Shown here in pieces: positions 312-20,940 of a stretch of DNA of 22,826 nucleotides. A program made the position numbers and the translations under genes. The stretch is taken from IMG/VR virus record IMGVR_UViG_3300021182_000069, positions 1 to 22,826 of that record. One strand, 5' to 3'. The first letter of the stretch is position 1. Every line of letters starts with the position of its first letter. Under the pieces are notes generated by a model. The model worked only from the letters and a program-made list of their open reading frames with translations, was not told the DNA's origin and made no database searches. Source of the stretch: a virus.

Positions 312-329
312 TTCTAGGGGAGAACTGAA

Positions 330-942: not shown

Positions 943-956
943 AAAGGAACCACACC

Positions 957-1832: not shown

Positions 1833-1850
1833 TAGGAAGGGGGCTGGAGA

Positions 1851-2393: not shown

Positions 2394-2412
2394 TCTTTTG
2401 AAAGGAGTCGGT

Positions 2413-7864: not shown

Positions 7865-7865
7865 T

Positions 7866-8279: not shown

Positions 8280-8292
8280 GAGAGGAACCACA

Positions 8293-8691
8293 ATGGCAAC
8301 TTTGATATCTGATGCAGATCGTAACTTTATTGCTGATCAGGAGGCATCTCGTATTCAGTTTCTGTCTCTGCATACAGATACCCCAGGCATTGACGGATCA
8401 AACGAAGCGACTGGTGGAACACCGCCATATATTCGATTGGCAGTTACATTCACCGCAGGCGGTGTCGAAGGCATTCTTGGTGCTGTCAAACAACCTGCCA
8501 CTGTCGGAGTTGCATGGAGCAGTGAAGTAGTGTTTGATGCTCCGGCTGGATCATATTCATACTGGGGTGGATGGGATTCAGAGTCGGATGGTGTATATCG
8601 AATGGGACACCAACTTGAACAGACGGAAGAAGCCGTTGGTCAGACTGAGATCACTGTGAGTTGTGGCATCGGTCAAGTGTCTGGGGGTTAA
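8293..8691 (+). CDS. Tail fibre-like protein (gp80-type)
   Basis: 132 residues with a clear ribosome-binding site (GGAGAGGAACC) before ATG. The segment FLSLHTDTPGIDGSNEATGG, then YIRLAVTF, VVFDAPAGSYSYWGGWDSES is the signature of small fibre-like proteins found after the tape measure in actinobacteriophages (mycobacteriophage gp80 type). All-beta character, no membrane helix. It is 3 bp from the beta-propeller gene and shares an operon with it. Exact position in the virion is unknown. Confidence 0.65.
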   Translation: MATLISDADRNFIADQEASRIQFLSLHTDTPGIDGSNEATGGTPPYIRLAVTFTAGGVEGILGAVKQPATVGVAWSSEVVFDAPAGSYSYWGGWDSESDGVYRMGHQLEQTEEAVGQTEITVSCGIGQVSGG

Positions 8692-8694
8692 CTC

Positions 8695-10182: not shown

Positions 10183-12621
10183 ATGTCCAAATTAGCTCCA
10201 ATTAGTTTAGAAGCATCATCAGAAGTTGTTCTTCTCCCGTTCGCATTTTCTGTAGATGTCACTTTCTCAATTGATGGAAATGTAGTCACCTCAGTAGACA
10301 CTGGTGTTCCTGTTGGATCTTATCCTTCTGATGGAACTGAAGTTGATGGAACGTTTACACCTTTTCCTATCGGTACAGTACTGCTAAATGATGACGATGG
10401 CCATCCACAACTAGCCGGAGATAACGTAAATCCAAACCCAACTACTACTCTAAACTCGACAGAGACGTGGTCAGTCTCTGAGCAACTGTTGCGTCGTGAA
10501 TCTTTGCTCTTTAACAAGCCTTCGAACTTTGGAAGGTTCCATGTTCCGGTAAAATGGATGCCTGCTAAAGCCATTAGCGAAGTTTGGGGTAAGATTCAGA
10601 TCGTTATCGATGGTAAGGACGTTACTTATTTCCGTGGTCATCCAACGGAGATGGGCATTTGGTCAAGTAATGAACCGAATGGAGATGCCGCGTGCTCAAT
10701 CCACTTTCCTCAGATCAGTTGGTTTGAAAGACCATCACATGGTGAGTTGAGTTGGATACGTGGTGGGAAGGATGTGGACATCATCCTCCACCGTCAAAAT
10801 GGCAGTAAAAAGACCTTATTTGAAGGCCTTGTTGTTGGGGTTGCTATTGATGGTCAAGGCGTTGGACTCTCTCTTGATGTGCTAGGGACTTTGTACCAAG
10901 CAGACCACACACCCTACATCCAAGAACTCTATTTAAAGCATCGAGACATTGGAACAGCGATCGCCGATATAATGGATGGTGGAATCAGTCGTAACTATCT
11001 TCCATGCAATCGTCCAGTTACAGGGATCGCTACCAATGTTAGAGGCACTGGTAACAATCGTTTAACGGGAGCAGTTCAAGATCTGTTGGCCACGGCGTTT
11101 ATTGCAGATACAACTAACCAGTGGACTATTACTAATCGTCCTGGACGTCGTCCGTACATTAAGTTAAAAGATAGGGCAACTCATCATTGGTCTATGGCGA
11201 TCGGACATCCTGGGCTTAAGTTGAGTCTAACAAATGATTTTCAGCAAATGGTCGGCATGGTATGGGGTAGTGGAGTTGCAACTGATGGCGGTTCATGGTT
11301 TAACGCCAAGTATCCTGGTATTCGTGTTGATGATGCTCCTTTGTTTCCTTTGGCCGTTGGTCAAGTGTTCTCTGCTGGCGATGGTCACACAGGGTTTGAT
11401 GCTTTGGCTGATGAGTTACGTAACCATGGGTACCGTATGGAATCTCAAGACACTTATGTAGCAAGTGATGTGACAGACGTTCGTGATGCACAACGTCGTT
11501 ACGGGATCACAGTTGATGGCGTTGTTGGAGCACAAACTTGGGCAGCGCTATTTGGTGTTGGTGGATCGGTTCCTTCACTCGATGGCGCTCATATCGCACC
11601 ATTAGCAGCAATTACTGAGAATGTGCAATTTCTTGAGCGTCTTGACGGTTCTATTATTGGTCCTAACCCAAAGTATAACAAAACAAGTTTGGCCATCGGT
11701 AGACTTATAGACTATGGCAACGATACTAGTAAAAGAGAAGGACTATCGTTTGCTCAAGGTGAGATTGCTCCAGCCATCATGTACGACCCTATGTGGGTTG
11801 GATCTGCTACACTGACAATGGATCCGGAAGAAGGTTCTCGTTGGGAGATCAGAGCCGGTGAGAACTTATTTGCTAAGTTCATGTATCCAGCCATGCGTAG
11901 AGTTGGGCTTGATGACGGATTGATTTTGCATATTAGTCAGGCGTCAGTTACTCCTGGTGGAGATGTTACGCTTCAGTTAAGTTATCTTGCCCATGACATG
12001 ACTACTTTGGCTGCAATCAAGAAGCGTAATAAAGACACTCTTGATCCTGCAAGAAAACCAAAGACTCCTTCTACTGCAATTACTCAGAATGCTGTTGTCC
12101 CGTGGGACGCTGAGGCTGGCGGAGGAAAGGTTCCACTTCATAATTTGCAGGGTGGGTATTGGACTGTGGTTCGTATTGCTGGTGGACAGATTGGTAATGT
12201 TGTAACAACTCGTTATGTGTGCTCATCTTCTGCAGGATATAACACCATAAATACAGCATTCGACTCAGAATCATCATTGCCTAATGCTCACGAGTTCTGT
12301 ATTGCCATATTTGGCAAGCCAGTAACATCTAACTTCTTGTTGAATCTGGTTGGTAATCCTCTATCTACGGCTCGAGTTTGGACGACTAAGGCTGCGCAAT
12401 TGAAGGCTGCTGGATTGTTACAAGCATATGGAGCATCGGATCAACCTGCTGGGCATTGGCCTGGTGCCGGTAGTGAGGGTGACGCATTGACTGGAAAGTT
12501 GATGGACGGTTCGGCATGGCCTTGGGAGTCCTCATCGCCACCATATTTGTGGGTTGCTGAGTATTGTGCTCAGTCTACTCGGGTCGCCGGTCAGTTCCGT
12601 AATGCTCCATTAGGGAGTTGA
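10183..12621 (+). CDS. Large minor tail protein with embedded peptidoglycan-binding domain
   Basis: 812 residues, ATG directly after the upstream TAG, with AAGGGAG 9 bp upstream. Residues 400-457 form a PGB_1-type peptidoglycan-binding domain (PF01471): FDALADELRNHGY, then VRDAQRRYGITVDGVVGAQT and WAALFG. The flanking parts (WFERPSHGELSWIRGGKDVDI, LFEGLVVGVAIDG, LSLDVLGTLYQADHTPYIQ) look like a phage tail-tip or baseplate hub protein with viral lectin/hub-like beta domains. A cell-wall-binding module within a tail protein suggests contact with peptidoglycan during adsorption or entry. The N-terminal residues SKLAPISLEAS repeat the 18-residue unit of the preceding protein. No muramidase or amidase motif was seen. 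Confidence 0.72.
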   Translation: MSKLAPISLEASSEVVLLPFAFSVDVTFSIDGNVVTSVDTGVPVGSYPSDGTEVDGTFTPFPIGTVLLNDDDGHPQLAGDNVNPNPTTTLNSTETWSVSEQLLRRESLLFNKPSNFGRFHVPVKWMPAKAISEVWGKIQIVIDGKDVTYFRGHPTEMGIWSSNEPNGDAACSIHFPQISWFERPSHGELSWIRGGKDVDIILHRQNGSKKTLFEGLVVGVAIDGQGVGLSLDVLGTLYQADHTPYIQELYLKHRDIGTAIADIMDGGISRNYLPCNRPVTGIATNVRGTGNNRLTGAVQDLLATAFIADTTNQWTITNRPGRRPYIKLKDRATHHWSMAIGHPGLKLSLTNDFQQMVGMVWGSGVATDGGSWFNAKYPGIRVDDAPLFPLAVGQVFSAGDGHTGFDALADELRNHGYRMESQDTYVASDVTDVRDAQRRYGITVDGVVGAQTWAALFGVGGSVPSLDGAHIAPLAAITENVQFLERLDGSIIGPNPKYNKTSLAIGRLIDYGNDTSKREGLSFAQGEIAPAIMYDPMWVGSATLTMDPEEGSRWEIRAGENLFAKFMYPAMRRVGLDDGLILHISQASVTPGGDVTLQLSYLAHDMTTLAAIKKRNKDTLDPARKPKTPSTAITQNAVVPWDAEAGGGKVPLHNLQGGYWTVVRIAGGQIGNVVTTRYVCSSSAGYNTINTAFDSESSLPNAHEFCIAIFGKPVTSNFLLNLVGNPLSTARVWTTKAAQLKAAGLLQAYGASDQPAGHWPGAGSEGDALTGKLMDGSAWPWESSSPPYLWVAEYCAQSTRVAGQFRNAPLGS

Positions 12622-12622
12622 T

Positions 12623-13255
12623 ATGGGTATTATAAGACCGGTAGGGGATGGCGTTGGTTGGGGTATTCAACCTCATGCTGTTATTGGTGGTATGTCAGAT
12701 CAAAACGATACCACTTATCTTGAGGAGTATGGATCTTGGCCTGTTCCTTACACAGATCAAAGTCACTTTGATCCAGCAAGTGATTGCGGACATGTGGAGT
12801 TACATGGAATTCCTAAGAAGTTGTCAATAAATGTTAGAGTATCTTCAGAGAATCCATCTATTGGGTCTATTCTAGGAGTTGCTCTAGAAGGTTTAGATTT
12901 AAATAACACATGGTGGGTTCCATTAAGAGGATATTGTGGTTTAGAACCGTCAATACTTACTTATAATTGTTCTTCTGATGATATTTCTAAATTTGGTTCG
13001 AACGGAGTGCGGATAGATATAGATACATCTATGGGGGCTAATAATGGTAATGGATGGTATGGAAGTAATACTAAAATTTACGACTGGTGGATCGATACTG
13101 GTGGTATCCCACCTCTTCGTCAACGAGCTCGTAATGATGGGTTGACTACAGATACCAGACAAGAGAAACGACAATTATCAGCATCTCCATTATTAGTTCC
13201 TGATTTATGGTGGGTTGGTGCTCCTGGTCACGAACATCCTGGTAGTAGCACATGA
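12623..13255 (+). CDS. Minor tail protein, unknown
   Basis: 210 residues, ATG one base after the upstream stop, ribosome-binding site TAGGGAG. Rich in Gly, Trp, Tyr and Asn, with no membrane helix or signal peptide. Segments such as SWPVPYTDQSHFDPASDCGHVELHG and NGNGWYGSNTKIYDWWIDTGG suggest an all-beta secreted or virion protein. The C-terminal 40 residues are low-complexity and basic. It sits between the hub-like protein and a glycosyltransferase, with a 4-bp overlap with the latter. A tail-tip role is inferred from position. Confidence 0.55.
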   Translation: MGIIRPVGDGVGWGIQPHAVIGGMSDQNDTTYLEEYGSWPVPYTDQSHFDPASDCGHVELHGIPKKLSINVRVSSENPSIGSILGVALEGLDLNNTWWVPLRGYCGLEPSILTYNCSSDDISKFGSNGVRIDIDTSMGANNGNGWYGSNTKIYDWWIDTGGIPPLRQRARNDGLTTDTRQEKRQLSASPLLVPDLWWVGAPGHEHPGSST

Positions 13256-13812
13256 GTACGCATAGGTTTTGGATGGGGAAATCGCTTCCGGAACAGGTAT
13301 GGATTACCTCAATTGTGCAACAATCACAGGTTGATTTGATTGACTGGACCTTTGATACGTTGCCTCAACAATTGAGTAAATTACTAGATCCTAACGACAA
13401 TCCTCGTCACATATCCAATGTTTCTAGATATTGGTTGTTATATGAGTATGGTGGATTGTGGCTTGATCATGATGTAATCCCGTTTCGTGATCTTACCGGT
13501 TCATCTCGACCATGGACGGCATCTCTTCGTGGACATAGAGAGGGTTGCGCCTTATGGTTTCCAACACCTGGTCATCCTATGTTGGCTGATCTTGTCGCAG
13601 CATCACTAACGACAGATTTTATGTCATCGCCATATCGATCAGGGGCTCACTTACTCGATCGTGTTGGGAGACGATATTCTGATGTTACTCTTGAGCAACG
13701 GGTTCTTCCTCTTGACGCTATGGGTCGTAGAACTTCCACTGAGGAAGTTTGGGCGGTGCATCTATGGAACTCAAGCGCTATTAAGCCGCAATCGACGTTA
13801 GGAAAGAGATGA
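13252..13812 (+). CDS. Glycosyltransferase, DxD sugar-binding type
   Basis: 186 residues. The segment SRYWLLYEYGGLWLDHDVIP (residues 58-77) is the core of the Gly_transf_sug family (PF04488: 'D/N-x2-RY-x-L-x-x-YGG-x-Y/W-x-D-x-D'), with the DxD at residues 72-74 expected to bind nucleotide-sugar through a divalent metal. The N-terminus (HRFWMGKSLPEQVWITS) fits the 'IPKxIHxxW' strand of these enzymes in a reduced form. The protein is short for the family but appears complete. It overlaps the minor tail gene upstream and the membrane protein downstream by 4 bp each, so it is made with virion proteins. It may glycosylate virion proteins or host surface polymers (inference). Confidence 0.75.
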   Translation: MSTHRFWMGKSLPEQVWITSIVQQSQVDLIDWTFDTLPQQLSKLLDPNDNPRHISNVSRYWLLYEYGGLWLDHDVIPFRDLTGSSRPWTASLRGHREGCALWFPTPGHPMLADLVAASLTTDFMSSPYRSGAHLLDRVGRRYSDVTLEQRVLPLDAMGRRTSTEEVWAVHLWNSSAIKPQSTLGKR

Positions 13813-14201
13813 TCCTACAAACAATAGCAGATAACTCAACAGATCTCGATTGGACGTCAATTATTCTTGGGGCCATAACATCAGGCACAGCAATGTTCGC
13901 TGCATGGATGGCAAAGCAGGCAGCATCTCAGTCTCGGGTAAATAACCGGTTGCTTAAAACAAACAGTGGTATGACAATCGGTGAGCATATAGAAGCTTTG
14001 CGTGGCGAGATAGAGATAATGACCGAAGAAAAAACTAAAGCCGATGCCCAACTTGTCGCTGCCGCTCTCGCCGCGGTGGCTAAACTTGCCGTAACTACAG
14101 AACCGCCTCGATTGACAGATCAGGCGGTTAATACCGCTAGTGATCTTATTACCAAAGCAGAACAGACAGCGGCGAGACTTAAGGAGGGGGATAATCCATG
14201 A
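13809..14201 (+). CDS. Single-pass membrane protein, holin-like, tandem paralogue 1
   Basis: 130 residues; ATG overlaps the upstream stop, GGAAAGAG site. One membrane segment at about 15-36 (SIILGAITSGTAMFAAWMA), then a cytoplasmic-type charged region with LKTNSGMTIGEHIEALRGE and a long Ala-rich helix or coiled coil. The 'NSG-hydrophobic-x-EHI-x-x-LR' motif followed by a coiled coil resembles DUF2746-type actinophage proteins often placed with lysis genes. The next gene has the same organisation (KSGMPLGQEIDSLKEE) and is a paralogue. A holin or lysis regulator role is possible but only inferred. Confidence 0.6.
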   Translation: MILQTIADNSTDLDWTSIILGAITSGTAMFAAWMAKQAASQSRVNNRLLKTNSGMTIGEHIEALRGEIEIMTEEKTKADAQLVAAALAAVAKLAVTTEPPRLTDQAVNTASDLITKAEQTAARLKEGDNP

Positions 14202-14575
14202 CAGTCGACTTCACAACGTTTGATTTTGGTGGCTTGGCTGATATAATGTTGCTATATGTATCTATTGTTGTGACTTACAACATGGTAAAGACGCAAAAAG
14301 CCGTGCATACCAAAAGCGGTATGCCTCTAGGCCAAGAAATCGATTCTCTTAAAGAAGAGTTTGCTCAGATTGCCGATTCAAAACTTTTGGCGGATGCTCG
14401 ATTAGCAAGTGCGGCGTTGGTCGCTGTCGCAAAATTGGCAAGAGAAGCAAAAGAAGACTCTAACCTGCTAGTTGAGGCTCAACGTGCCGCCGAACAAATT
14501 ATCGTTGAGGCTGACAAAGCAGCCGTAAGATTAGAGTCGGATAAAAATGTCGAAAAAAAAGGTACCGGTAAGTAA
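14198..14575 (+). CDS. Single-pass membrane protein, holin-like, tandem paralogue 2
   Basis: 125 residues, AAGGAGG 9 bp before an ATG that overlaps the upstream stop. Membrane segment at residues 12-29 (GLADIMLLYVSIVVTYNMV), then KSGMPLGQEIDSLKEE matching the upstream paralogue, and an Ala-rich helical region (LASAALVAVAKLAREAKE). The C-terminus is basic and encoded by a run of eight A (14553-14560). The two proteins may act as a pair, like holin/antiholin systems, but no direct evidence exists here. Confidence 0.6.
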   Translation: MTVDFTTFDFGGLADIMLLYVSIVVTYNMVKTQKAVHTKSGMPLGQEIDSLKEEFAQIADSKLLADARLASAALVAVAKLAREAKEDSNLLVEAQRAAEQIIVEADKAAVRLESDKNVEKKGTGK

Positions 14576-14644
14576 CAAGACATACAACAATTTTCGATCT
14601 ATAGAGTCGTCAAAATGGCAGTAAATTTGGAGGTATGGATCGAA

Positions 14645-14980
14645 ATGAAAGTGCCAATCAAAACCAATCGTCTTTACGATAGCCTAAAGTTTATTGCACT
14701 GGTTTTTCTCCCAGCTCTTGGTACTCTATATTTCGCTTTGGCTGGGTATTGGAATCTACCAAATGCTGAACAAATTGTTGGAAGTATCACCGCGGTCGAT
14801 GCGTTTCTAGGACTCATACTTCATCTAAACACAAAAGCTTACAATTCCAGTGACGCCAAGTATGGTGGTACCATCGATATCGAACAGGTTGAAAATAAAA
14901 AGATTTACTCATTGAATTTGAATTCAGACCCTGATGATCTTGATACCAAGGACCAGGTTATATTCAGGATAAACAAATAA
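14645..14980 (+). CDS. Phage holin (r1t / Dp-1-like)
   Basis: 111 residues from the ATG at 14645; an ATG at 14615 is in frame, but GGAGG at 14629-14633 lies between the two and favours the later start (spacing 11 bp, slightly long). The sequence RLYDSLKFIALVFLPALGTL, then YFALAGYWNLPNAEQIVGSI and TAVDAFLGLILHLNTKAYN matches small two-helix holins (r1t/Dp-1 type; 'K-x-YD-x-LK...LPAL-x-x-LY-x-AL...W-x-LP'). It would form membrane lesions to release or activate endolysin. It is longer than usual, with an extra hydrophilic C-terminal 45 residues. No endolysin is in the window. Confidence 0.75.
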   Translation: MKVPIKTNRLYDSLKFIALVFLPALGTLYFALAGYWNLPNAEQIVGSITAVDAFLGLILHLNTKAYNSSDAKYGGTIDIEQVENKKIYSLNLNSDPDDLDTKDQVIFRINK

Positions 14981-15041
14981 CTTTCGGCAGGGAAAACTCG
15001 CAGTTTAAACATCCCCTATAATGAGATAACCCTACCGAAAG
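14981..15041. repeat. Inverted repeat flanking promoter P1
   Basis: CTTTCGGCAGGG (14981-14992) and CCCTACCGAAAG (15030-15041) match in 11 of 12 positions as an inverted repeat, with promoter P1 between them. The right arm overlaps the ribosome-binding site of the next gene. The left arm could only pair in RNA made by read-through from the holin gene, where it would hide the ribosome-binding site; RNA started at P1 would not contain it. This could separate the two transcripts' translation (inference). Confidence 0.5.
14997..15025 (+). promoter_or_regulatory. Promoter-like element P1
   Basis: CTCGCAG, then TTTAAACAT, CCCC and TATAATGAG. The -10 box is TATAAT at 15017-15022. It precedes the 94-residue membrane protein gene by 24 bp. 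One of twelve copies in the window. Confidence 0.75.
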
Positions 15042-15048
15042 GAGAAGC

Positions 15049-15333
15049 ATGTTCAAATGGAGAACTTCAAAGAAGTCTGGCCTAGTACAGGCTCGTGACG
15101 AAGCCGTTTTCGAGTTGCAAGGATTTGAAGCGCATGAGAAGGAATATAAGAGGATCGTAGCCCGCGTGAAGGAGCTCACTCATCTCATCGACTTGGAAAA
15201 GCCTGAGAGATTGAGCCCCAACACGATTGCCATGATTCTTGGAAATGCCGGAATTACGCTTGTTGTCGTTGCATACGAGAGCAGGAACGTCATGACCACA
15301 AAAGCCAAAGATTTCTGGCTGAAGTTCAAGTGA
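15049..15333 (+). CDS. Small coiled-coil membrane protein
   Basis: 94 residues, strong site (GAAAGGAGAAGC) before ATG and its own promoter P1. A charged N-terminal helix with coiled-coil character (residues 15-50, EAHEKEYKRIVARVKEL) is followed by one membrane segment at about 59-76 (TIAMILGNAGITLVVVAY) and a basic tail (KAKDFWLKFK). Similar proteins recur in actinobacteriophages; no function known to me. It is followed by a strong terminator, making a single-gene transcription unit. Confidence 0.75.
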   Translation: MFKWRTSKKSGLVQARDEAVFELQGFEAHEKEYKRIVARVKELTHLIDLEKPERLSPNTIAMILGNAGITLVVVAYESRNVMTTKAKDFWLKFK

Positions 15334-15363
15334 ACCGCTAACCCATCCCAGGCTAATCGAGAA

Positions 15364-15410
15364 GTAGACGACCTGTAAGAATCGAAACCTTACAGGTCGT
15401 CTACATTTTC
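15364..15410 (+). terminator. Intrinsic terminator
   Basis: A perfect 16-bp stem, GTAGACGACCTGTAAG (15364-15379) with its complement at 15389-15404, 9-nt loop, followed by ATTTTC. It ends the P1 transcript. Confidence 0.9.
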
Positions 15411-15473
15411 GTTTCTACAAGGACTAAAAAGTTTTGCCCAAAAATTCCCCCGGAGGAAAAATTGGGTATATCA

Positions 15474-15501
15474 TCGCAGAAAATACACGGTCTATAATGA
15501 G
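15474..15501 (+). promoter_or_regulatory. Promoter-like element P2
   Basis: TCGCAG, then AAAATACAC, GGTC and TATAATGAG, with -10 at 15493-15498. No coding sequence follows; the downstream unit is the structured RNA at 15499-15605. Confidence 0.75.
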
Positions 15502-15605
15502 AAGGAGCCTACATACGAAAAAGATGGCTTAATACAGCGTTAATGATAGCACCGTGTAATGACGCGCAAAACATAAATCGATCGCGATATTCCTTCTCAT
15601 TTTTT
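15499..15605 (+). ncRNA. Candidate structured RNA A with closing terminator stem
   Basis: GAGAAGGA (15499-15506), directly after the P2 -10 box, is perfectly complementary to TCCTTCTC (15591-15598), which is followed by ATTTTTT. Between them are smaller hairpins: CGTGT-AATG-ACGCG (15553-15566) and ATCG-ATCG-CGAT (15577-15588). No reading frame longer than a few codons has a ribosome-binding site. The arrangement (promoter, short RNA closed by its own terminator) recurs at 16149, 16279, 20612 and 20827. Function unknown. Only two internal hairpins are clear here, with no tandem repeats as in the later RNAs. Confidence 0.6.
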
Positions 15606-15610
15606 GCCTT

Positions 15611-15638
15611 TCGTGAGAATTACATCCCCTATAATGAG
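15611..15638 (+). promoter_or_regulatory. Promoter-like element P3
   Basis: TCGTGAGAATTACAT, CCCC and TATAATGAG, -10 at 15630-15635. TTGCCT lies at 15604-15609. It drives the 38-residue membrane protein gene. Confidence 0.75.
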
Positions 15639-15661
15639 CAGCCCCTACGAAAGGAAAAGAA

Positions 15662-15778
15662 ATGAAGGTTTTTGCGAAAGTGGTTGGAGCGTTTATGTTC
15701 ATTCCGGCATTCATCATACTGATGTTATTCGGATTAATACTATTCACCAACCTGCTGCTTTCCACCACCCCGCACTGA
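15662..15778 (+). CDS. Very small membrane protein (38 aa)
   Basis: MKVFAKVVGAFMFIPAFIIL, then MLFGLILFTNLLLSTTPH, ending at TGA 15776-15778. A good ribosome-binding site (GAAAGGAAAAG) and promoter P3 (24 bp from the -10 box to the Shine-Dalgarno region) precede it, and a terminator follows at 15804, so this is a complete single-gene unit. It has a short basic N-terminus and one long hydrophobic segment (residues 7-34). A larger overlapping frame (15604-15855) begins upstream of the promoter and is not credible. Could be a small holin-like or membrane-disturbing peptide; function unknown. Confidence 0.7.
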   Translation: MKVFAKVVGAFMFIPAFIILMLFGLILFTNLLLSTTPH

Positions 15779-15803
15779 CGTTCCTCACTAGAACGCTCAA
15801 AGG

Positions 15804-15832
15804 CAAGATGCCCTTGCAAGGCGTCTTGTTTT
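15804..15832 (+). terminator. Intrinsic terminator
   Basis: CAAGATGCC (15804-15812) pairs with GGCGTCTTG (15820-15828, one G-U pair), 7-nt loop, then TTTT. The T-tract merges with the start of promoter P4. Confidence 0.8.
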
Positions 15833-15859
15833 CGCAAAAATTACACGCCCTATAATGAA
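15832..15859 (+). promoter_or_regulatory. Promoter-like element P4
   Basis: TCGCAAAAATTACAC, GCCC and TATAATGAA, -10 at 15851-15856. It departs from the others only in the final base (GAA for GAG). It drives the gene at 15890. Confidence 0.75.
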
Positions 15860-15889
15860 CCCCTAGACCCCACTTTATAAGGAGAAATC

Positions 15890-16084
15890 ATGGACCCCAT
15901 CGAGACCCCCGAGACTGACGAAATCAGCTTTGGCAAAACACTTGTAAAAGACTACGCAGAAACTCTTGCCACATCGGCAGGACTTCTTACCGGAGTTGTA
16001 CTGGTGGCATTTGCCTTCGAGCAGATTCAGAAAGTCAGAGCTCGACGCAAAGCCAAGAAGAACCAGATCAAGACCGAGAGCTAG
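15890..16084 (+). CDS. Small membrane protein (64 aa)
   Basis: Site AAGGAGAAATC before ATG, promoter P4 upstream. Acidic N-terminus (MDPIETPETDEISFGKTLVK), one membrane segment at 27-44 (ATSAGLLTGVVLVAFAF), then a very basic tail (VRARRKAKKNQIK), which suggests the C-terminus stays in the cytoplasm. It resembles the protein at 17932 in layout. Function unknown. Confidence 0.75.
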   Translation: MDPIETPETDEISFGKTLVKDYAETLATSAGLLTGVVLVAFAFEQIQKVRARRKAKKNQIKTES

Positions 16085-16123
16085 AGTTCAGACCTATCGT
16101 CCCACAAGGACTTTAGGTTTGCC

Positions 16124-16151
16124 TCGCACAATTTACATGGCATAGAATGAG
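16124..16151 (+). promoter_or_regulatory. Promoter-like element P5
   Basis: TCGCACAATTTACAT, GGCA and TAGAATGAG, -10 (TAGAAT) at 16143-16148, with TTGCCT at 16119-16124. It leads into structured RNA B. Confidence 0.65.
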
Positions 16152-16248
16152 AAGGACATTAAACTACAACGTTTGAATGAACACTACCCGTTAACCACGG
16201 ATGCAGTTTGTTGATACCGAACGATTAGAAATGCTCTTCTTTAATTTT
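16149..16248 (+). ncRNA. Candidate structured RNA B with closing terminator stem
   Basis: GAGAAGGACATT (16149-16160) pairs with AATGCTCTTCTT (16230-16241): 11 of 12 positions pair, two as G-U. TAATTTT follows as U-tract. Inside lie three hairpins: GTTT-GAAT-GAAC (16171-16182), CCGT-TAACC-ACGG (about 16188-16200) and GTTTG-TTGATAC-CGAAC (16206-16222). A reading frame starting at 16201 passes through this RNA and the next promoter and has no ribosome-binding site. Function unknown; same layout as RNA A, D and F. Confidence 0.58.
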
Positions 16249-16253
16249 GCCTC

Positions 16254-16281
16254 TCGCAGGAATTACATGTCCTCTAATGAG
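16254..16281 (+). promoter_or_regulatory. Promoter-like element P6
   Basis: TCGCAGGAATTACAT, GTCC and TCTAATGAG, -10 (TCTAAT) at 16273-16278, TTGCCT at 16247-16252. It leads into structured RNA C and then the gene at 16390. Confidence 0.68.
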
Positions 16282-16376
16282 AGAGATGTTGTCAGAACCC
16301 CCACCGGTTCCCATAGCAAAAGATCCGCGCAAGCGAATCCGCATCCCCTCACCCTTTTTATTTGTCTCTCATTTTT
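16279..16376 (+). ncRNA. Candidate structured RNA C or leader with closing terminator stem
   Basis: GAGAGA (16279-16284) pairs with TCTCTC (16365-16370), followed by ATTTTT. Inside are GAACC-loop-GGTTC (16295-16310) and a hairpin at 16322-16339: GAT, C x A mismatch, CGC/GCG, loop GCAA (GNRA tetraloop). The latter shares the 'outer stem, 1x1 mismatch, 3-bp inner stem' plan of the RNAs at 20.6-20.9 kb. The gene at 16390 starts 13 bp after the U-tract with no other promoter, so the element may be either a free RNA or a terminator-type leader controlling that gene. Confidence 0.5.
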
Positions 16377-16389
16377 GAAAGGAGTAGTC

Positions 16390-16521
16390 ATGCCCTATCG
16401 TTATGTCGAGCCCAAGAAATATGGTTTTTGGCGTTTCATCTTTGACGTCTGCATGGTTTGCATTACATGTGGTTTTTGGCTCATTTGGATATTCGTCCGT
16501 GAGATGCGTCGACAGCGATGA
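16390..16521 (+). CDS. Small membrane protein (43 aa)
   Basis: Starts at the ATG at 16390 after GAAAGGAG (8 bp spacing). MPYRYVEPKKYGFWRFIF, then DVCMVCITCGFWLIWIFV and the basic end REMRRQR. One membrane segment at about 14-36, with three cysteines (VCMVCITCG) inside or next to it. A longer in-frame start at 16201 is rejected because it crosses promoter P6 and has no ribosome-binding site. It overlaps the next small gene by ATGA. Confidence 0.7.
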   Translation: MPYRYVEPKKYGFWRFIFDVCMVCITCGFWLIWIFVREMRRQR

Positions 16522-16640
16522 CATCAACTGAGTCCGTTCCATCAGGTCGTTGCTCATACTGCCACCATATTCGTGATCTCGTTAATGGAGTATTGCGAGT
16601 GCATACATATAGGTTCTGCAATTTGTCCTGGCTCCGATAA
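16518..16640 (+). CDS. Tiny putative zinc-finger protein (40 aa)
   Basis: ATG at 16518 overlaps the TGA of the upstream gene (ATGA); the frame ends at TAA 16638-16640. Sequence MTSTESVPSGRCSYCHHIRD, then LVNGVLRVHTYRFCNLSWLR. Cys12-x2-Cys15 (with His16, His17), His29 and Cys34 could form a small zinc site, as seen in many short phage proteins. The overlap and the Cys spacing are the only support. The 3' end also contains a possible hairpin (GGCT-CCGATA-AGCC, 16629-16642) spanning the stop. Confidence 0.55.
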   Translation: MTSTESVPSGRCSYCHHIRDLVNGVLRVHTYRFCNLSWLR

Positions 16641-16684
16641 GCCTCCTTTAGAGCCTCCGTTGAGAAATAAACAAGGAGCATAAT

Positions 16685-17458
16685 ATGTCCATAAGTTCGA
16701 TAGCCAAGCATGCCGAGAAACTCATCGCCGATAACTCTCCAGCGATTCTAACTATTGTTGCGGTCACAGGAACTCTGACAACTGCGTTCCTGACAGGTAA
16801 GGCGACATTCAAGGCCGCCGAGGTTATCGAACACGAGAAAGAACGACTGGCCATCTACAAGAATTCACGTCATATCGAGTTTAAGGATGAGTTTAAACTT
16901 GTGTGGAAACTTTATATTCCGTCGGCGGGTAGTTGTCTGATGACCATCGTGTGTGTAGTTGGGGCGAATCGCATCGGGTCACGTCGTGCTGCTGCCGTAG
17001 CGGCTGCGTTTTCTATATCTGAGAAGGCTATCGCCGAGTACAAAGACAAAGTAATTGAGCGAGTTGGTGATGTGAAAGAACAAAAGATACGCGATGAAAT
17101 TGCCCAAGATCATGTAGATCGAGATCCCGTAGGTGGGCGTGAGGTGATCATAACGGGGAATGGTGAGGTTCTCTGTTATGACCAGTTCTCCGGTCGTTAC
17201 TTCAAAAGTGCTTATGAGACTTTGAAGAAGGCTCAAAACGACATCAACTACAAACTCATCAGCGATGACTACGCATCTCTAAGCGATTTCTACGACAAGA
17301 TAGGACTCGCGCCGACCGCATATTCTGAAGAGGTTGGATGGAGAGTCGAGACTAAGTTGGAGTTGGAGTTCTCGGCATGCTTGTCCGAAGATCAGCGTCC
17401 CTGCATCTCGATAGGATTTCACATAGCCCCAGTGAGGGACTACTACCGAGTTAACTAA
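16685..17458 (+). CDS. DUF6353-like membrane protein, copy 1
   Basis: 257 residues, site CAAGGAGCAT before ATG. Two membrane segments: about 18-38 (SPAILTIVAVTGTLTTAFLT) and 74-95 (WKLYIPSAGSCLMTIVCVVG), separated by a charged stretch with HEKERL. The 'NSPAIL' motif, the GKATFKA helix and the later AIAEYKDKV and FKSAYETLKKAQ segments match a family of phage membrane proteins (DUF6353) with a C-terminal soluble domain. A paralogue starts at 22267. No promoter motif lies immediately upstream; it may be co-transcribed from P6. Role unknown. Confidence 0.75.
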   Translation: MSISSIAKHAEKLIADNSPAILTIVAVTGTLTTAFLTGKATFKAAEVIEHEKERLAIYKNSRHIEFKDEFKLVWKLYIPSAGSCLMTIVCVVGANRIGSRRAAAVAAAFSISEKAIAEYKDKVIERVGDVKEQKIRDEIAQDHVDRDPVGGREVIITGNGEVLCYDQFSGRYFKSAYETLKKAQNDINYKLISDDYASLSDFYDKIGLAPTAYSEEVGWRVETKLELEFSACLSEDQRPCISIGFHIAPVRDYYRVN

Positions 17459-17473
17459 AAAATAGAAGAGATA

Positions 17474-17872
17474 ATGAATCAACACGTTGAGAAGATTAAG
17501 AAACACTTGCAGGAGAACAAGACGGTTTATATTGCTGGGGCAGGATGTTTGGTTGTCGCAGGAATTACATTCCTTATAATGAGATCCAGTTCAGGATCAA
17601 CTATCCTCCGTGATTCGATCGTGGAGGCCCAGCGTGATTCGATCGTGCTGGGGAAGAACGCGACCCTGAACCAGGTCTCATATTTTGCATCAGAACGTCA
17701 AGGTCCTCCATCCTGGGTTGTTCGTTGTATCGAGACTGGAAACGTCTTTACATCGCAACGATCAGCGGCTTTTGCAATGGAGATTTCTGAGAGCAATATC
17801 TCACGGCAACTTAACGGTCTTAAGGATCAAGCCGACGGTTATCATTTTGAACGCCTATGCATGGCGGCGTAG
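17474..17872 (+). CDS. Membrane-anchored NUMOD1/HTH-like protein, paralogue 1
   Basis: 132 residues, AGAAGAG site before ATG. Basic helix MNQHVEKIKKHLQENK, membrane segment at 18-36, a linker with a duplicated RDSIV, and a C-terminal domain at 85-127 (CIETGNVFTSQRSAAFAM, then SESNISRQLNGLKDQADGYH). That domain follows the NUMOD1/IENR1 pattern ('G..F.S...AA...I..S.IS..LNG....GYHF'), a helix-turn-helix usually attached to homing endonucleases; no nuclease domain is present. The paralogue at 20202 has the same layout. Bases 17556-17583 contain an intact copy of the repeated promoter, coding for part of the membrane segment. Function: possibly DNA binding at the membrane (inference). Confidence 0.72.
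   Translation: MNQHVEKIKKHLQENKTVYIAGAGCLVVAGITFLIMRSSSGSTILRDSIVEAQRDSIVLGKNATLNQVSYFASERQGPPSWVVRCIETGNVFTSQRSAAFAMEISESNISRQLNGLKDQADGYHFERLCMAA
17556..17583 (+). promoter_or_regulatory. Promoter-like element P8 inside a coding sequence
   Basis: TCGCAGGAATTACAT, TCCT and TATAATGAG-type end (-10 TATAAT at 17575-17580), entirely within the gene at 17474-17872. It would start an RNA covering only the 3' two-thirds of that gene, including the HTH-like domain. Confidence 0.6.
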
Positions 17873-17877
17873 TCATC

Positions 17878-17906
17878 TCCGCAGAAATTACATCGCCTAT
17901 AATGAG
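17878..17906 (+). promoter_or_regulatory. Promoter-like element P9
   Basis: TCCGCAG, AAATTACAT, CGCC and TATAATGAG, -10 at 17898-17903. It lies in the gap right after the stop of the gene at 17474 and drives the gene at 17932. Confidence 0.78.
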
Positions 17907-17931
17907 CACCCCCACAAGAAAGGAAATTATC

Positions 17932-18189
17932 ATGGACGCCGAAAACGTTCCGACCACCACCGAACTCCCCGCCGTCAAACTGGCGTCAGAGCCGGTGAAG
18001 AAGAAGTTCTACCGCAACCCCAAGGTTGTCGGAGGCATCGTCGCTGGCTTCATTGCCGCAGGCGTAGCCGTCGCCATCACTGGAATGCGAAAGAGCTCTG
18101 AACCCGACTCCGGCACCGACACCATCGGCGAGGACGACGTGGTCGTCGAGACCTTCGACGAGTCCAGCGAGACACCACCCCTCGACTGA
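17932..18189 (+). CDS. Small membrane protein (85 aa)
   Basis: Starts at the ATG at 17932, after AAGAAAGGAAA and promoter P9. An ATG at 17857 in the same frame lies upstream of the promoter and is not used. Layout: a Pro/Thr-rich N-terminus, basic KKKFYRNPK, one membrane segment at 32-50 (VVGGIVAGFIAAGVAVAI), and an acidic C-terminus (GEDDVVVETFDESSE). Its codons are more GC-rich than those of its neighbours, which may mark a separate origin. A terminator follows. Confidence 0.75.
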   Translation: MDAENVPTTTELPAVKLASEPVKKKFYRNPKVVGGIVAGFIAAGVAVAITGMRKSSEPDSGTDTIGEDDVVVETFDESSETPPLD

Positions 18190-18202
18190 GGACTCAAGGA
18201 GG

Positions 18203-18229
18203 AAGAACCCCTAACACGGGTTCTTTCTC
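18203..18229 (+). terminator. Intrinsic terminator
   Basis: AAGAACCC (18203-18210) pairs with GGGTTCTT (18218-18225), 7-nt loop, followed by a pyrimidine-rich TTCTCTTTG run. It ends the P9 transcript. Confidence 0.82.
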
Positions 18230-18246
18230 TTTGTCTTACCATATTT

Positions 18247-18259
18247 GAAACCCTACGAA
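18247..18259 (+). promoter_or_regulatory. Conserved leader box GAAACCCTACGAA
   Basis: The same 13 bases occur at 20955-20967. In both places the box ends 11 bp before the ATG (18271 and 20979) and follows a terminator. Shortened forms (CCCTACGAA) occur at 15643 and, with one insertion, at 15030. It overlaps the Shine-Dalgarno region and may be a translation or processing signal. Confidence 0.5.
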
Positions 18260-18270
18260 GGAGTATTATC

Positions 18271-18585
18271 ATGTCTGACACAGTACCGATCCCTGTTAAC
18301 TATGGAAATAAATATACATCTTACAAAGAAAGGGAACGACGTAGGATTCAGAGAGAAAACAAACAGAATCTCTTTGTTAGGTTTTACTTAAAGCCGAGTT
18401 TGGTCCTAGTTGGTAGTGTTATGGGTATTGCCACGATTACTGTCTTGGTCAAGAAGAACCAGAAACTGAACAAGGATCTCAACGTAGCCCTCGGAGGTTA
18501 CCTGACCCTTGCCAACGAACTCGCTATCGAGCACGGCTATACCCTTGGGGATTTCCTCAACAAACTTGAAAAGGCTGGATCATGA
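18271..18585 (+). CDS. Membrane protein with basic N-terminus (104 aa)
   Basis: ATG after CGAAGGAG. A highly charged N-terminal region (KERERRRIQRENKQN), one membrane segment at 42-60 (PSLVLVGSVMGIATITVLV), and an amphipathic C-terminal part (LANELAIEHGYTLGDFLNKL). No promoter motif lies between the terminator at 18203-18229 and this gene. Read-through or an unrecognised promoter must supply the RNA. It is first in a run of overlapping genes to 20005. Function unknown. Confidence 0.72.
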   Translation: MSDTVPIPVNYGNKYTSYKERERRRIQRENKQNLFVRFYLKPSLVLVGSVMGIATITVLVKKNQKLNKDLNVALGGYLTLANELAIEHGYTLGDFLNKLEKAGS

Positions 18586-18872
18586 ACGGATTCGATCCTA
18601 TATCGGCATACCCGGCATACGATGGTATGACTCCAATGTCCTCTGAGGAGCATCGTATTCAGATGGATGCCATATCAAATCTTATCGCAGACATGGGTAT
18701 TCAGCATGCTACACCAGAAGAAACACTCCGTGTAGTGCGGCACTTTATGGTTGTCGCTGATGCTGAGAAGCATAACCTAGACTGGAAACAGTCGGCTGTT
18801 GACCATGGGATTGCCCAACTCAAGACAAAATATGAAGGAACCTCAAATGACGGATCACAACGATCCAAATAA
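18582..18872 (+). CDS. Unknown soluble protein (96 aa)
   Basis: ATG overlaps the upstream stop (ATGA). N-terminus MNGFDPISAYPAYDGMTPMS, then helices (EHRIQMDAISNLIADMG, PEETLRVVRHFMVVADAEKH). No membrane helix. The C-terminal 26 bp overlap the next small gene. No family recognised. Confidence 0.68.
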   Translation: MNGFDPISAYPAYDGMTPMSSEEHRIQMDAISNLIADMGIQHATPEETLRVVRHFMVVADAEKHNLDWKQSAVDHGIAQLKTKYEGTSNDGSQRSK

Positions 18873-18975
18873 GAGACGGGTTCAACAAGAAACTCGTCGA
18901 CGTGCAAAAGAGCAGGGCATCAAATATACTAAAGCGCTTCGACAAGTCCTGAAAGAGATTGAGGAAAAACCGTGA
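18847..18975 (+). CDS. Small basic protein (42 aa)
   Basis: ATG at 18847 with GAAGGAACC 6 bp upstream, ending at TGA 18973-18975. Sequence MTDHNDPNKRRVQQETRRRA, then KEQGIKYTKALRQVLKEIEE and KP. A single charged helix is likely. It overlaps both neighbours (26 bp with the upstream gene; GTGA with the next), which supports true translation. Function unknown. Confidence 0.62.
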   Translation: MTDHNDPNKRRVQQETRRRAKEQGIKYTKALRQVLKEIEEKP

Positions 18976-19418
18976 ATATAAGTAAAATCGCTGCTAAGGA
19001 TGCAGCCGAATGGGCACGTGCTGAGATGTTCTTCGGAGAAGGCGCTGGTACTCGACGGAAGTTGCTTGAGGCTGAGATCGCCCACAAAGTTGAGAACCTT
19101 TCTGACTATAACGAACTGTTCAAGAAGGCTTACTCCAAGCAGAATATGGCAGATCATGCCGCTAAGGCCGCCAAAGAACGCAAACATATTGACCGAATGG
19201 CCAAGGTTAGTAAGAACGCACGGGCTCTTGTTCACGGAGATCGACGTGGTCTTTCAACCGGTGTCTTCGTCATAGTCGCTATCGGATACGTCGCTCACCA
19301 GACCGGTTACGACAAAGTGGCTCTCGAAGAGGGAAAGAAGCAGTACCACAAGATCAAGACAAGGTTCGATATCTGGAAACTCAAGCGTGACATCGATAAA
19401 CAATACAGGCCGAAGTGA
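18972..19418 (+). CDS. Helical protein with one possible membrane segment (148 aa)
   Basis: GTG start at 18972 overlapping the upstream TGA (GTGA), continuing NISKIAAKDAAEWARAEMFF. A long helical, Lys/Ala-rich region (residues 28-85), one moderately hydrophobic segment at 95-109 (STGVFVIVAIGYVAH), and a basic C-terminus (KTRFDIWKLKRDIDKQYRPK). The frame is well supported by tight overlap and by codon quality. Not recognised. Confidence 0.68.
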   Translation: MNISKIAAKDAAEWARAEMFFGEGAGTRRKLLEAEIAHKVENLSDYNELFKKAYSKQNMADHAAKAAKERKHIDRMAKVSKNARALVHGDRRGLSTGVFVIVAIGYVAHQTGYDKVALEEGKKQYHKIKTRFDIWKLKRDIDKQYRPK

Positions 19419-19432
19419 AAGGGGAATAACAC

Positions 19433-20005
19433 ATGATCAAAGAGACAATTACGTACAAAACGCCTGACGGAGATAAACTGACCGAGGACTTCTACTTCAA
19501 CTTTGACAAGGTTGAGATCATCGATCTGCAGGTCCAGGACAAACGCGGTCTTCAAGCAGTTCTGGAGGCTATTCAAGCAGCAAAGGATACGAAGGCCGCC
19601 TTTGACTTTATCAAGGACACAATTCTCCTGGCTTACTGCGAAAGGGCTCCCGACGGTAAGGGCGTCAAGAAAACTCAGGAACTTCGTGACTCGTTTCGAG
19701 GAAAAGAAGCATTCGTCAATCTCGTGTTCGAGTTTCTGGAAGACCCAACGGCTGGCGCAAAGTTCTTCGACAGTCTTGTTCCTGAATGGATGAAGAAAGA
19801 ATTTGAGGAAACCGCGAAAAAGGTTGAAGGTATGGATCTGACTATGCCGTCGATCTCGGGAACAGACGCGCCAGTTCGTCCTCCAACAAGGGATCATCAG
19901 CAAAAGAAAGTTGTCGAGAAGGTGGTTGAACTTCCTAGAGAGAAGACTGCCTCTGAACTTGAGGCTGAGATTGCTGCACTGAAGGCTCAACTCGAACGAA
20001 AGTAG
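19433..20005 (+). CDS. Probable second tail assembly chaperone-like protein
   Basis: 190 residues, GAAAGGGG site. The first 125 residues follow a siphophage tail assembly chaperone family: ETITYKTPDGDKLTEDFYFN, then FDKVEIIDLQV, VLEAIQAAKDTKAAFDFIKD, ILLAYCERAPDGKGVKKTQE, LRDSFRGKEAFVNLVFEFL and AKFFDSLVP. The C-terminus differs: a Pro-rich linker and a coiled coil (ASELEAEIAALKAQLERK). The gene is about 12 kb from the tape measure, among small membrane protein genes, and the window already has a chaperone at 1851. It may be a relocated or repurposed chaperone, or the family may have a wider function. The call rests on sequence pattern only. Confidence 0.5.
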   Translation: MIKETITYKTPDGDKLTEDFYFNFDKVEIIDLQVQDKRGLQAVLEAIQAAKDTKAAFDFIKDTILLAYCERAPDGKGVKKTQELRDSFRGKEAFVNLVFEFLEDPTAGAKFFDSLVPEWMKKEFEETAKKVEGMDLTMPSISGTDAPVRPPTRDHQQKKVVEKVVELPREKTASELEAEIAALKAQLERK

Positions 20006-20128
20006 TAAGATTCTGTGAAGGTGGGAACCAGCACAGGGTCCTTTCGTAGGGGTTCAGCCCTATTCCGGATGCTAGGTTTATAAACGACAGCCGAGGGCAT
20101 CTCATCCATGCCGAAACATGTGCCCGTC
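20006..20128 (+). other. Intergenic stretch with several possible hairpins
   Basis: 123 bp without a credible gene. Possible stems: CTGTG/CACAG (about 20012-20036), TAGGG-GTTCAG-CCCTA (20047-20062), the palindrome GTTTATAAAC, and GGCAT-CTCATCC-ATGCC (about 20096-20112). It lacks the repeated promoter at its start and a U-tract at its end. It could be a 3' untranslated structure of the upstream operon. A tRNA was considered and not supported. Confidence 0.3.
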
Positions 20129-20156
20129 TCGCAGAAAAAACATCGCCTATAATGAG
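20129..20156 (+). promoter_or_regulatory. Promoter-like element P10
   Basis: TCGCAGAAAAAACAT, CGCC and TATAATGAG, -10 at 20148-20153. It drives the gene at 20202. Confidence 0.78.
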
Positions 20157-20201
20157 ACCCCCACGGGTTTTATATTTCGAATTCCTATGAAAGAAAAGTC
20201 G

Positions 20202-20597
20202 ATGAATACTAAAGTTGAGAAAATCAAGAACCACTTCAAAGAGAACAAGAAACTCTACATTGGACTAGGAATTGGCGCTGTTGTTGGTGTCGCCGGTACT
20301 ATTATCTTCAAGAAAAACGACGGAAATCAAGCGATCGTGGATTCATTCAAACTTGTCAATTGGAAATCTCCGCATACGTCTCAATTGATACAAGTCGCAA
20401 TTCCTCGACGAGGGAACTCTGGAAATGCGATTCAGTGTGATCAAACCGGGACTATATTTCCGAGTCAGAACCTCGCGGCGAAAGAAATGGACTTAAATGC
20501 TGGAAATCTTTCGCAGCAACTGAATGGAAAAATTCCGTCTGTAAATGGCTTTACTTTTACAAAACTTACCGAAAGCGGTGATCCCATCGCAGAATAA
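20202..20597 (+). CDS. Membrane-anchored NUMOD1/HTH-like protein, paralogue 2
   Basis: 131 residues from the ATG at 20202. This start aligns with its paralogue at 17474 (MNTKVEKIKNHFKENK against MNQHVEKIKKHLQENK). An in-frame ATG at 20187 would add five residues; a start at 20118 precedes promoter P10. Membrane segment at 19-36 (YIGLGIGAVVGVAGTIIF), variable linker, then a C-terminal domain at 79-121 (CDQTGTIFPSQNLAAKEM, DLNAGNLSQQLNGK, NGFTFTKL) of the NUMOD1/IENR1 helix-turn-helix pattern. The last codons overlap promoter P11. No nuclease motif. Confidence 0.72.
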   Translation: MNTKVEKIKNHFKENKKLYIGLGIGAVVGVAGTIIFKKNDGNQAIVDSFKLVNWKSPHTSQLIQVAIPRRGNSGNAIQCDQTGTIFPSQNLAAKEMDLNAGNLSQQLNGKIPSVNGFTFTKLTESGDPIAE

Positions 20598-20614
20598 ACA
20601 TAGCCTATAATGAG
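20587..20614 (+). promoter_or_regulatory. Promoter-like element P11
   Basis: TCGCAGAATAAACAT, AGCC and TATAATGAG, -10 at 20606-20611. Its first bases are the last codons of the gene at 20202. It leads into structured RNA D. Confidence 0.78.
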
Positions 20615-20718
20615 AATCCTCTGGGTCAGTCATTGCGACAGGCTTGATTGGCGTCAGTCATTGCGACGGACCCCATCTTACCCATCATTGTGATGAGTAA
20701 TCAGAGGGTTCTCATTTT
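20612..20718 (+). ncRNA. Three-hairpin structured RNA D (AUUGY loops)
   Basis: The closing stem GAGAATCCTCTG (20612-20623) with CAGAGGGTTCTC (20702-20713) has 12 pairs, one G-U, and is followed by ATTTT. Inside are three tandem hairpins, 27-28 nt apart, with cores GTCATTGCGAC (20629-20639 and 20657-20667) and ATCATTGTGAT (20684-20694). The third core differs from the others by changes on both sides of the stem (G-C to A-U), so pairing is kept. Each core is flanked by a short outer stem with different sequence in each unit. P11 gives the promoter. No reading frame is apparent. A four-way junction fold is predicted; function unknown. Confidence 0.78.
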
Positions 20719-20721
20719 AGG

Positions 20722-20815
20722 ATTAGTGTTTGGATCCGCCGATAAGGCAGATCTGCAGGCCCGCCGATAAGGTAGACTTGCTTGGCCCGCCGATAAGGTA
20801 GACCAACAAACTACA
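20722..20815 (+). ncRNA. Three-hairpin structured RNA E (GAUAA loops)
   Basis: Three tandem hairpins, 25-26 nt apart: GATC, C x A, GCC-GATAA-GGC, GATC (20733-20753); GCAGGCC, C x A, GCC-GATAA-GGT, GACTTGC (20755-20781); TTGGCC, C x A, GCC-GATAA-GGT, GACCAA (20782-20806). Outer stems differ but stay paired. A weak closing stem GTTTG/CAAAC (20728-20732 with 20807-20811) may join them. There is no separate promoter or U-tract: the 3' side runs into P12. It may be transcribed by read-through from P11, or be part of a longer nine-hairpin RNA. Confidence 0.68.
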
Positions 20816-20829
20816 TGTCCTATAATGAG
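20802..20829 (+). promoter_or_regulatory. Promoter-like element P12
   Basis: CCAACAAACTACAT, GTCC and TATAATGAG, -10 at 20821-20826. The upstream half (TCGCAG in other copies) is replaced by the end of RNA E, while TACAT and CC-TATAATGAG are kept. It leads into structured RNA F. Confidence 0.68.
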
Positions 20830-20940
20830 AACCCAGTATCTGGATCACCGTTATGCGGAGATCTGAATGGTCACCGTTATGCGGAGACCGTCTTGGCCAC
20901 CGTTATGCGGAGACCAACAGATACTGGGTTCTCATTTTTC
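20827..20940 (+). ncRNA. Three-hairpin structured RNA F (UUAUG loops)
   Basis: The closing stem GAGAACCCAGTATCTG (20827-20842) pairs perfectly over 16 bp with 20918-20933, followed by ATTTTTC. Three tandem hairpins at 26-nt spacing: GATC, A x A, CCG-TTATG-CGG, GATC (20843-20863); GGTC ... GACC (20869-20889); TTGGCC ... GACCAA (20893-20917). The core is identical in all three, the outer stems change and, apart from one C x A mismatch in the third, stay paired. P12 precedes it. The gene at 20979 follows with the leader box but no new promoter, so RNA F could also be a terminator leader for it. Not a family I recognise. Confidence 0.8.

Follow-up and report, generated by a model that had tools for sequence, protein, structure and literature searches.

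Several phages encode RNA polymerases in which the two double-psi beta-barrels of the core lie in a single chain (single-chain two-barrel polymerases). YonO of the Bacillus phage SPbeta, an enzyme of about 100 kDa, transcribes the late genes of its phage as one long operon; its transcription start was mapped, and the sequence of its promoter and whether YonO-type polymerases find promoters alone were left open (PMC5467207). In the Thermus phages P23-45 and P74-26, the single-chain two-barrel polymerases gp64, gp62 and gp96, the last fused to the tape measure protein, are each linked to a promoter motif of their own, and one motif of this group was argued from co-occurrence with the polymerase (PMC10770324). 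The polymerase of the crAss-like phage phi14:2 belongs to the same class and, according to the title of 6vr4, is a virion-packaged enzyme. The present work concerns a 29-bp element repeated in the IMG/VR virus record IMGVR_UViG_3300021182_000069, the whole of which (22,826 nt) was analysed and is called the window below. From sequence comparisons and structure prediction, the element is very likely the promoter of a phage-encoded single-chain two-barrel polymerase, YonO/QDE-1-like and classified as PHROG 4291, which probably recognises its promoters by itself.

The proposed system differs from those described. In contrast to the single late operon of YonO, many putative promoters serve small genes and RNAs located after the tail genes; YonO gives no Pfam helix-turn-helix (HTH) match and its direct sequence comparison with the present polymerase was not significant. 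The Thermus phage enzymes have about 590 residues (gp64 class) or are fused to the tail tape protein, and GC-rich and AT-rich motifs are ascribed to them; neither HTH ends nor a TCGCA...TTACA...TATA element was found in the accessible part of that account (PMC10770324). The phi14:2 enzyme is a chain of 2,166 residues, and its similarity was weak and obtained with a first, poor structure model only (E 0.03). Short repeated motifs upstream of small genes, SAS and ESAS, are also known from actinophages of clusters K and EF but, in the part of the source available, they have other sequences and another position, and no SAS-type motif is reported for cluster EL (PMC7302621); the cluster EL phage Camille has eight copies of the present element.

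The repeated element and its distribution

A weight-matrix scan of the window revealed 11 copies, which lie within 14998-20830 and share the + strand (Table 1), one fewer than an earlier note on this DNA had counted. These copies scored 29 to 39 bits against 10 bits for the best remaining site, and in Markov-shuffled windows the mean number of sites exceeding 8 bits, scored on nearly the same scale, was about 0.1. An IUPAC scan allowing three mismatches gave 12 matches where 2.3 were expected; the twelfth match, at 22244, is an unrelated site with three mismatches. The layout described in the earlier note was correct: TCGCAG, 3 nt, TTACAT, 4 nt and TATAATGAG, at fixed spacing in the window copies and with 13 bp between TCGCAG and TATAAT. 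Copies 5 and 6 carry a single change each in TATAAT and copy 11 lacks the TCGCA block. No copy was detected by the scan among the structural genes (1-14996), again as noted earlier. Five copies precede coding genes, with start codons 32 to 54 bp downstream, and one is intragenic. The other five stand directly before structured RNAs; in one case the RNA continues into a small gene. The intragenic copy (copy 7) is strong and lies within the part of its open reading frame (ORF) predicted to encode a membrane helix.

By DNA similarity, the window lies near Deejayvirinae, the cluster DJ phages of Gordonia, with a looser similarity to Streptomyces, Rhodococcus and Microbacterium phages. The element is not confined to this phage: a pool of 390 non-redundant copies, taken from metagenomic phages and from phages of Gordonia, Rhodococcus, Streptomyces, Arthrobacter and Microbacterium, yields the logo TCGCA-N5-wTTACA-N5-TATA(A/G)TGAGA, after which comes a weaker CCCCTA. 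The C of ACA is conserved in 100% of these copies, the outer Ts of TATAAT in 98-99%, TATA positions 3 and 4 in 94-99% and the next G in 97%. All the copies of a contig agree in strand, except for one contig with a single odd copy. When IMG/VR was scanned with a pattern of the element, 47 stretches matched, and the majority contain arrays of 4 to 20 copies; the few single-copy contigs are put down to chance, as by our own estimate the pattern, with 17 fixed bases, should match several times fortuitously.

The Avazak genome (60 kb) carries 12 strong copies at 28.7-38.9 kb, between the tail genes and the replication genes, plus weak later ones, and about 5 to 14 copies each are present in ReqiPepy6, Bilo, Rima, Mudcat, Camille, Shiba, Thiqqums and the oral phage D_HF5_2C. 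In another phylum, at about 33% GC and with a polymerase about 38% identical, the Lactococcus phages 1706 and P162 have about 12 copies each, in consistent variants of their own, and Curtobacterium phage JoyLin has nine copies of a separate variant. The upstream block is TCGCA in the actinophages, TTTTA in P162 and looser in 1706, and a TATAGTAGAA variant occurs in 1706 and at some JoyLin sites. The variants are uniform inside each genome and differ among genomes, as would be expected for a polymerase with its cognate promoters, although shared descent would give the same pattern.

A literature search with the motif string returned chance matches only. In the accessible parts of papers on Gordonia, Arthrobacter, Microbacterium and Rhodococcus phages, arrays of small genes are described, and neither the element nor a role for the polymerase appears.

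Predicted position of the transcription start

The earlier note took TATAAT for a -10 box. A start of the sigma type is expected about 7 nt past a -10 box, which would leave the GAG block outside the RNA. Counting the first T of TATAAT (T1) as 0, the RNA at 20821 forms 16 uninterrupted base pairs from the GAGA right after TATAAT to UCUCAUUUUU, and that at 20606 has the same closing stem with 14 of 15 pairs. Across all the phages, 20 terminator-closing stems were collected, and their outermost pair falls at T1+2 to +6 in 17 and at +7 to +22 in none. Exact 7-mer stems with their own partner numbered 10 against 0.7 in the shuffled control at T1+6 and 12 against 2.1 at T1+7; at T1+3, this control is inflated because TCTCATTTT recurs in neighbouring terminators. 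Several genes have a Shine-Dalgarno sequence immediately past TATAAT (TATAATAGGAGGAACCAAAATG, TATAATAGGAGGATGATAATG), which argues against a start at T1+12, as it would be cut off, although leaderless translation may be an alternative for these genes. In 99% of the 390 copies, T1+4 is a purine (A or G), fitting a first nucleotide, and the positions of transfer RNAs beside elements are compatible with both start-site models.

Signals of a sigma-dependent promoter were also sought. Mismatch counts for a TTGACA-like -35 at 16-18 bp matched those at the control spacing in the 390 copies, and an extended -10 (TGn) was present in three of them. Therefore, as the RNA stems include GAGA and some ribosome-binding sites start there, transcripts would start inside or just after TATAAT, and this hexamer is unlikely to be a -10 box of the sigma type. 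The proposed start is T1+4, with T1+5 and T1+6 as alternatives.

Use of the element by host RNA polymerase carrying the housekeeping sigma factor, with a phage activator bound to TCGCA/TTACA instead of a -35, was considered in the light of these data. T4 MotA, with AsiA, is an example of an activator of this kind. As a -10 box, TATAAT is perfect, GAG could be a discriminator, and the upstream blocks lie about one helical turn apart, as an activator might require. However, the stems and Shine-Dalgarno sequences place GAGA in the transcript, upstream of a sigma-type start, the element is nearly constant from Actinomycetota hosts to Lactococcus, TATA positions 3 and 4 are conserved above what would be expected of a -10 box, and no common activator was recognised among the core genes shared by these phages. 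This alternative is thus considered improbable.

Still far less probable is that a phage sigma factor, as suggested in the earlier note, steers the host polymerase to the element. It would account for the non-standard upstream block, but sigma region 2 (PF04542) was found in none of 13 complete phage genomes, with a positive control in 10 known bacteria, and the region-4-like matches sit within the PHROG 4291 protein itself. T7-type promoters resemble the element in being compact, with TATA beside the start and a short leader; the polymerase proposed here belongs to the unrelated two-barrel class. The T7-type polymerase profile PF00940 gave no match in the 13 genomes, the control likewise giving none.

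Repetition, conservation and a mostly intergenic location would also suit a site that lacks promoter activity and acts as an operator, stoperator or recombination site. Against this, the copies keep strictly to a single strand and to a short fixed distance from the starts of genes or RNAs, they have a TATA core, and RNA stems begin at them, so that this explanation is very hard to credit. In contrast, promoter function would fit the one-strand orientation within contigs and the apparent position of the copies at the 5' end of transcription units, as judged from leaders and stems.

The PHROG 4291 protein as the candidate polymerase

In relatives of the window, PHROG 4291, which is named RNA-dependent RNA polymerase and whose members are often deposited as helix-turn-helix protein, is the last large gene (Avazak gene 92, Kenosha gene 89, 1706 orf75), at the right end of the genome. 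The motif ADFDGD, of the catalytic DxDGD type, is invariant in 88 sequences and is also present in Lactococcus phage 1706. Among 10 diverse members, Pfam RdRP (PF05183) matches eight, sigma-70 region 4 eight or nine, and HTH_23 all 10, the last two at residues ~78-129 of individual polymerases; the C-terminus is matched by HTH_23 or by further HTH models. An AlphaFold model from the 88 sequences reached a predicted local distance difference test (pLDDT) value of 86.8 and a predicted template modelling score (pTM) of 0.76, replacing a first model from 15 sequences that was poor (pTM 0.34). Its best Foldseek matches were QDE-1 (E 4.5e-08) and P74 gp62 (E 1.3e-06), and VIA-align gave Z scores of 15.0 over 373 residues for QDE-1, 14.9 for maize RDR2, 12.9 for P32 gp64, 12.7 for P74 gp62 and about 11 for multisubunit polymerases. 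The model and its fold matches place both double-psi beta-barrels of the core in one chain. Motif, Pfam and fold matches thus predict that the protein is an RNA polymerase of the single-chain two-barrel class, flanked by HTH domains at its N- and C-termini. It may already figure in an existing survey of viral two-barrel polymerases.

The window itself contains a free-standing 96-aa ORF (18582-18872) that matches PHROG 4291 residues 542-635 (E 1.4e-26), the stretch just past ADFDGD. No second free-standing copy was seen among the loci examined, the 145 other matches being within full polymerases, and this ORF may represent a duplicated piece of the gene or act as a decoy.

The element and the polymerase gene were compared in phage databases, in the case of phage records as counts per genus and not name by name. 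A blastn search of 50,697 phage records with a 46-nt consensus of the element matched 205, all in genera holding the polymerase; records with the element (and with the polymerase) numbered 55 (55) for Gordonia, 54 (54) for Streptomyces, 4 (4) for Rhodococcus, 74 (95) for Arthrobacter, 2 (4) for Microbacterium and 4 (7) for Curtobacterium. The polymerase was present in 21 of the 22 element-matching IMG/VR records of at least 38 kb, the exception having one weak site. Conversely, ACA-N5-TATAATGAG with at most one mismatch was detected in 20 of 21 contigs for which the polymerase was the sole criterion of choice, with 91 sites, on one strand throughout, compared to two for the reversed control pattern. 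PHROG 4291 occurs exactly once in each of 13 complete relatives. The suggestion of the earlier note that one regulator or polymerase form reads the whole element is therefore well supported, as the element tracks one polymerase gene across genera and phyla.

Several points weigh against the proposal. Other core genes are common to the same phages (DNA polymerase/primase, helicase, nucleases, PHROG 4303 and PHROG 4079), so that co-occurrence does not single out the polymerase, and the window's own polymerase gene lies outside the 22.8-kb fragment, which stops before that region. The fold match covers only residues ~222-741 of the model, an hhalign comparison with the single YonO sequence was not significant (probability 3.8%), and Pfam RdRP, which matches eight of the 10 members, does not match YonO itself; PDB sequence searches with a single sequence or a profile returned just HTH and weak matches. 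The stem statistics come from about 20 RNAs, and shuffled pairings yield 3 to 9 stems because neighbouring terminators are alike. A search for transcript data on these phages found none, and the matching of HTH domains to upstream blocks is a guess. An 11-base stretch of SPbeta, TTACATACCCT, upstream of yonK (60146, minus strand) could not be placed relative to the YonO start and was not used; scanning a genome for this stretch gave no result.

Of the shared core genes, the most interesting possible helper is PHROG 4303, a protein of 80 to 86 aa (80 aa as listed among the core genes) encoded directly downstream of the polymerase gene; it was detected in 10 of 11 relatives compared, in the polymerase's own records, Lactococcus included. 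A variant of the proposal, in which PHROG 4291 is the enzyme and a separate phage factor such as PHROG 4303 reads the promoter, would be in keeping with this adjacency. A domain search of PHROG 4303, however, recognised no DNA-binding domain, whereas the polymerase has HTH matches at both ends, and a separate reader is regarded as unlikely.

If the polymerase reads the element by itself, its N-terminal, sigma region-4-like domain and its C-terminal HTH would contact the TCGCA and TTACA blocks, which are spaced by about one turn of the helix. TATA would melt and initiation would take place at the following purine (T1+4) or within the next two bases, giving RNAs with the 5' end RTGAGA. Each promoter would serve a single small gene or structured RNA, in an array downstream of the tail genes.

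The one basis for carriage of the polymerase in the virion is the 1706 record, in which the homologue orf75 is labelled structural protein, a label that hints at such carriage and at early use. It is conceivable, but rather doubtful, that a virion-carried two-barrel polymerase with built-in sigma-like HTH domains is injected along with the DNA and transcribes the array before or without host sigma, as a self-sufficient transcription system, which would help the phages to move between host genera or phyla. Mutable host preferences have been proposed for phages of this network in the accessible part of one source (PMC7302621).

Features of the window and significance

The features are collected in Table 1; Rfam gave no match in the window.

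Table 1. Element copies, structured RNAs and terminator-like sequences of the window, with examples of PHROG 4303 from related phages (PWM, position weight matrix).
Feature	Position	Strand	First T of TATAAT	PWM score (bits)	Remarks
Element copy 1	14998..15026	+	15017	33.1	upstream of gene 15049-15333
Element copy 2	15474..15502	+	15493	36.0	upstream of structured RNA ~15497-15603
Structured RNA after copy 2	~15497-15603	+			stem GAGAAGGA/UCCUUCUC, then T-run
Terminator-like TCTCATTTT	15595..15603	+			pairs with GAGA of copy 2
Element copy 3	15611..15639	+	15630	32.1	upstream of 38-aa membrane-like ORF 15662-15778
Element copy 4, variant	15832..15860	+	15851	33.7	upstream of gene 15890-16084
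Element copy 5	16124..16152	+	16143	33.4	TAGAAT; upstream of structured RNA ~16147-16250
Structured RNA after copy 5	~16147-16250	+			fold z -2.5
Element copy 6	16254..16282	+	16273	36.5	TCTAAT; upstream of structured RNA ~16277-16375
Structured RNA after copy 6	~16277-16375	+			fold z -4.0; then ORF 16390-16521
Terminator-like TCTCATTTT	16367..16375	+			pairs with GAGA of copy 6
Element copy 7	17556..17584	+	17575	35.4	inside ORF 17474-17872
Element copy 8	17879..17907	+	17898	37.4	upstream of gene 17932-18189
Element copy 9	20129..20157	+	20148	38.7	upstream of gene 20202-20597
Element copy 10	20587..20615	+	20606	36.1	upstream of structured RNA ~20610-20719
Structured RNA after copy 10	~20610-20719	+			fold z -4.3
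Terminator-like TCTCATTTT	20710..20718	+			pairs with GAGA of copy 10
Element copy 11	20802..20830	+	20821	29.1	without TCGCA block; upstream of structured RNA ~20825-20939
Structured RNA after copy 11	~20825-20939	+			16 uninterrupted base pairs from GAGA; fold z -7.4
Terminator-like TCTCATTTT	20930..20938	+			pairs with GAGA of copy 11
PHROG 4303, Avazak gene 93	L057:9860-10102
PHROG 4303, 1706 orf76	L095:49578-49838

Three adjoining RNAs occupy 20611-20939, including one at 20722-20812, and each consists of three near-identical short hairpins with the repeats CACCGTTATGCGGAGA, GTCATTGCGAC and CCGCCGATAAGGxAGA. Their fold z values are -7.4, -4.3 and -2.6, none has an Rfam match, and two of the three are closed by a long stem that also serves as terminator; they look like small RNAs that show one loop three times. 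In the RNA after copy 6, the terminator is immediately followed by a Shine-Dalgarno sequence and a 43-aa ORF (16277-16521 overall), an arrangement that looks like an attenuated leader. The genes at 17474-17872 and 20202-20597 are paralogues (PHROG 27818); each has a membrane helix predicted at its N-terminus and a weak C-terminal NUMOD-like match, an unusual pairing.

The proposal offers a testable answer to the question of which DNA such single-chain viral polymerases recognise. For a related class of polymerase, it provides candidate promoters by the hundred, each with a precise predicted start, in phages of Gordonia, Streptomyces, Arthrobacter and Lactococcus that are in culture. A compact pair of polymerase and promoter working across hosts would be a useful laboratory tool. 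If the proposal is true, a gene that usually bears the label 'HTH protein' or 'RNA-dependent RNA polymerase' would gain a function, and more than 200 sequenced phages would gain an explained transcription programme.

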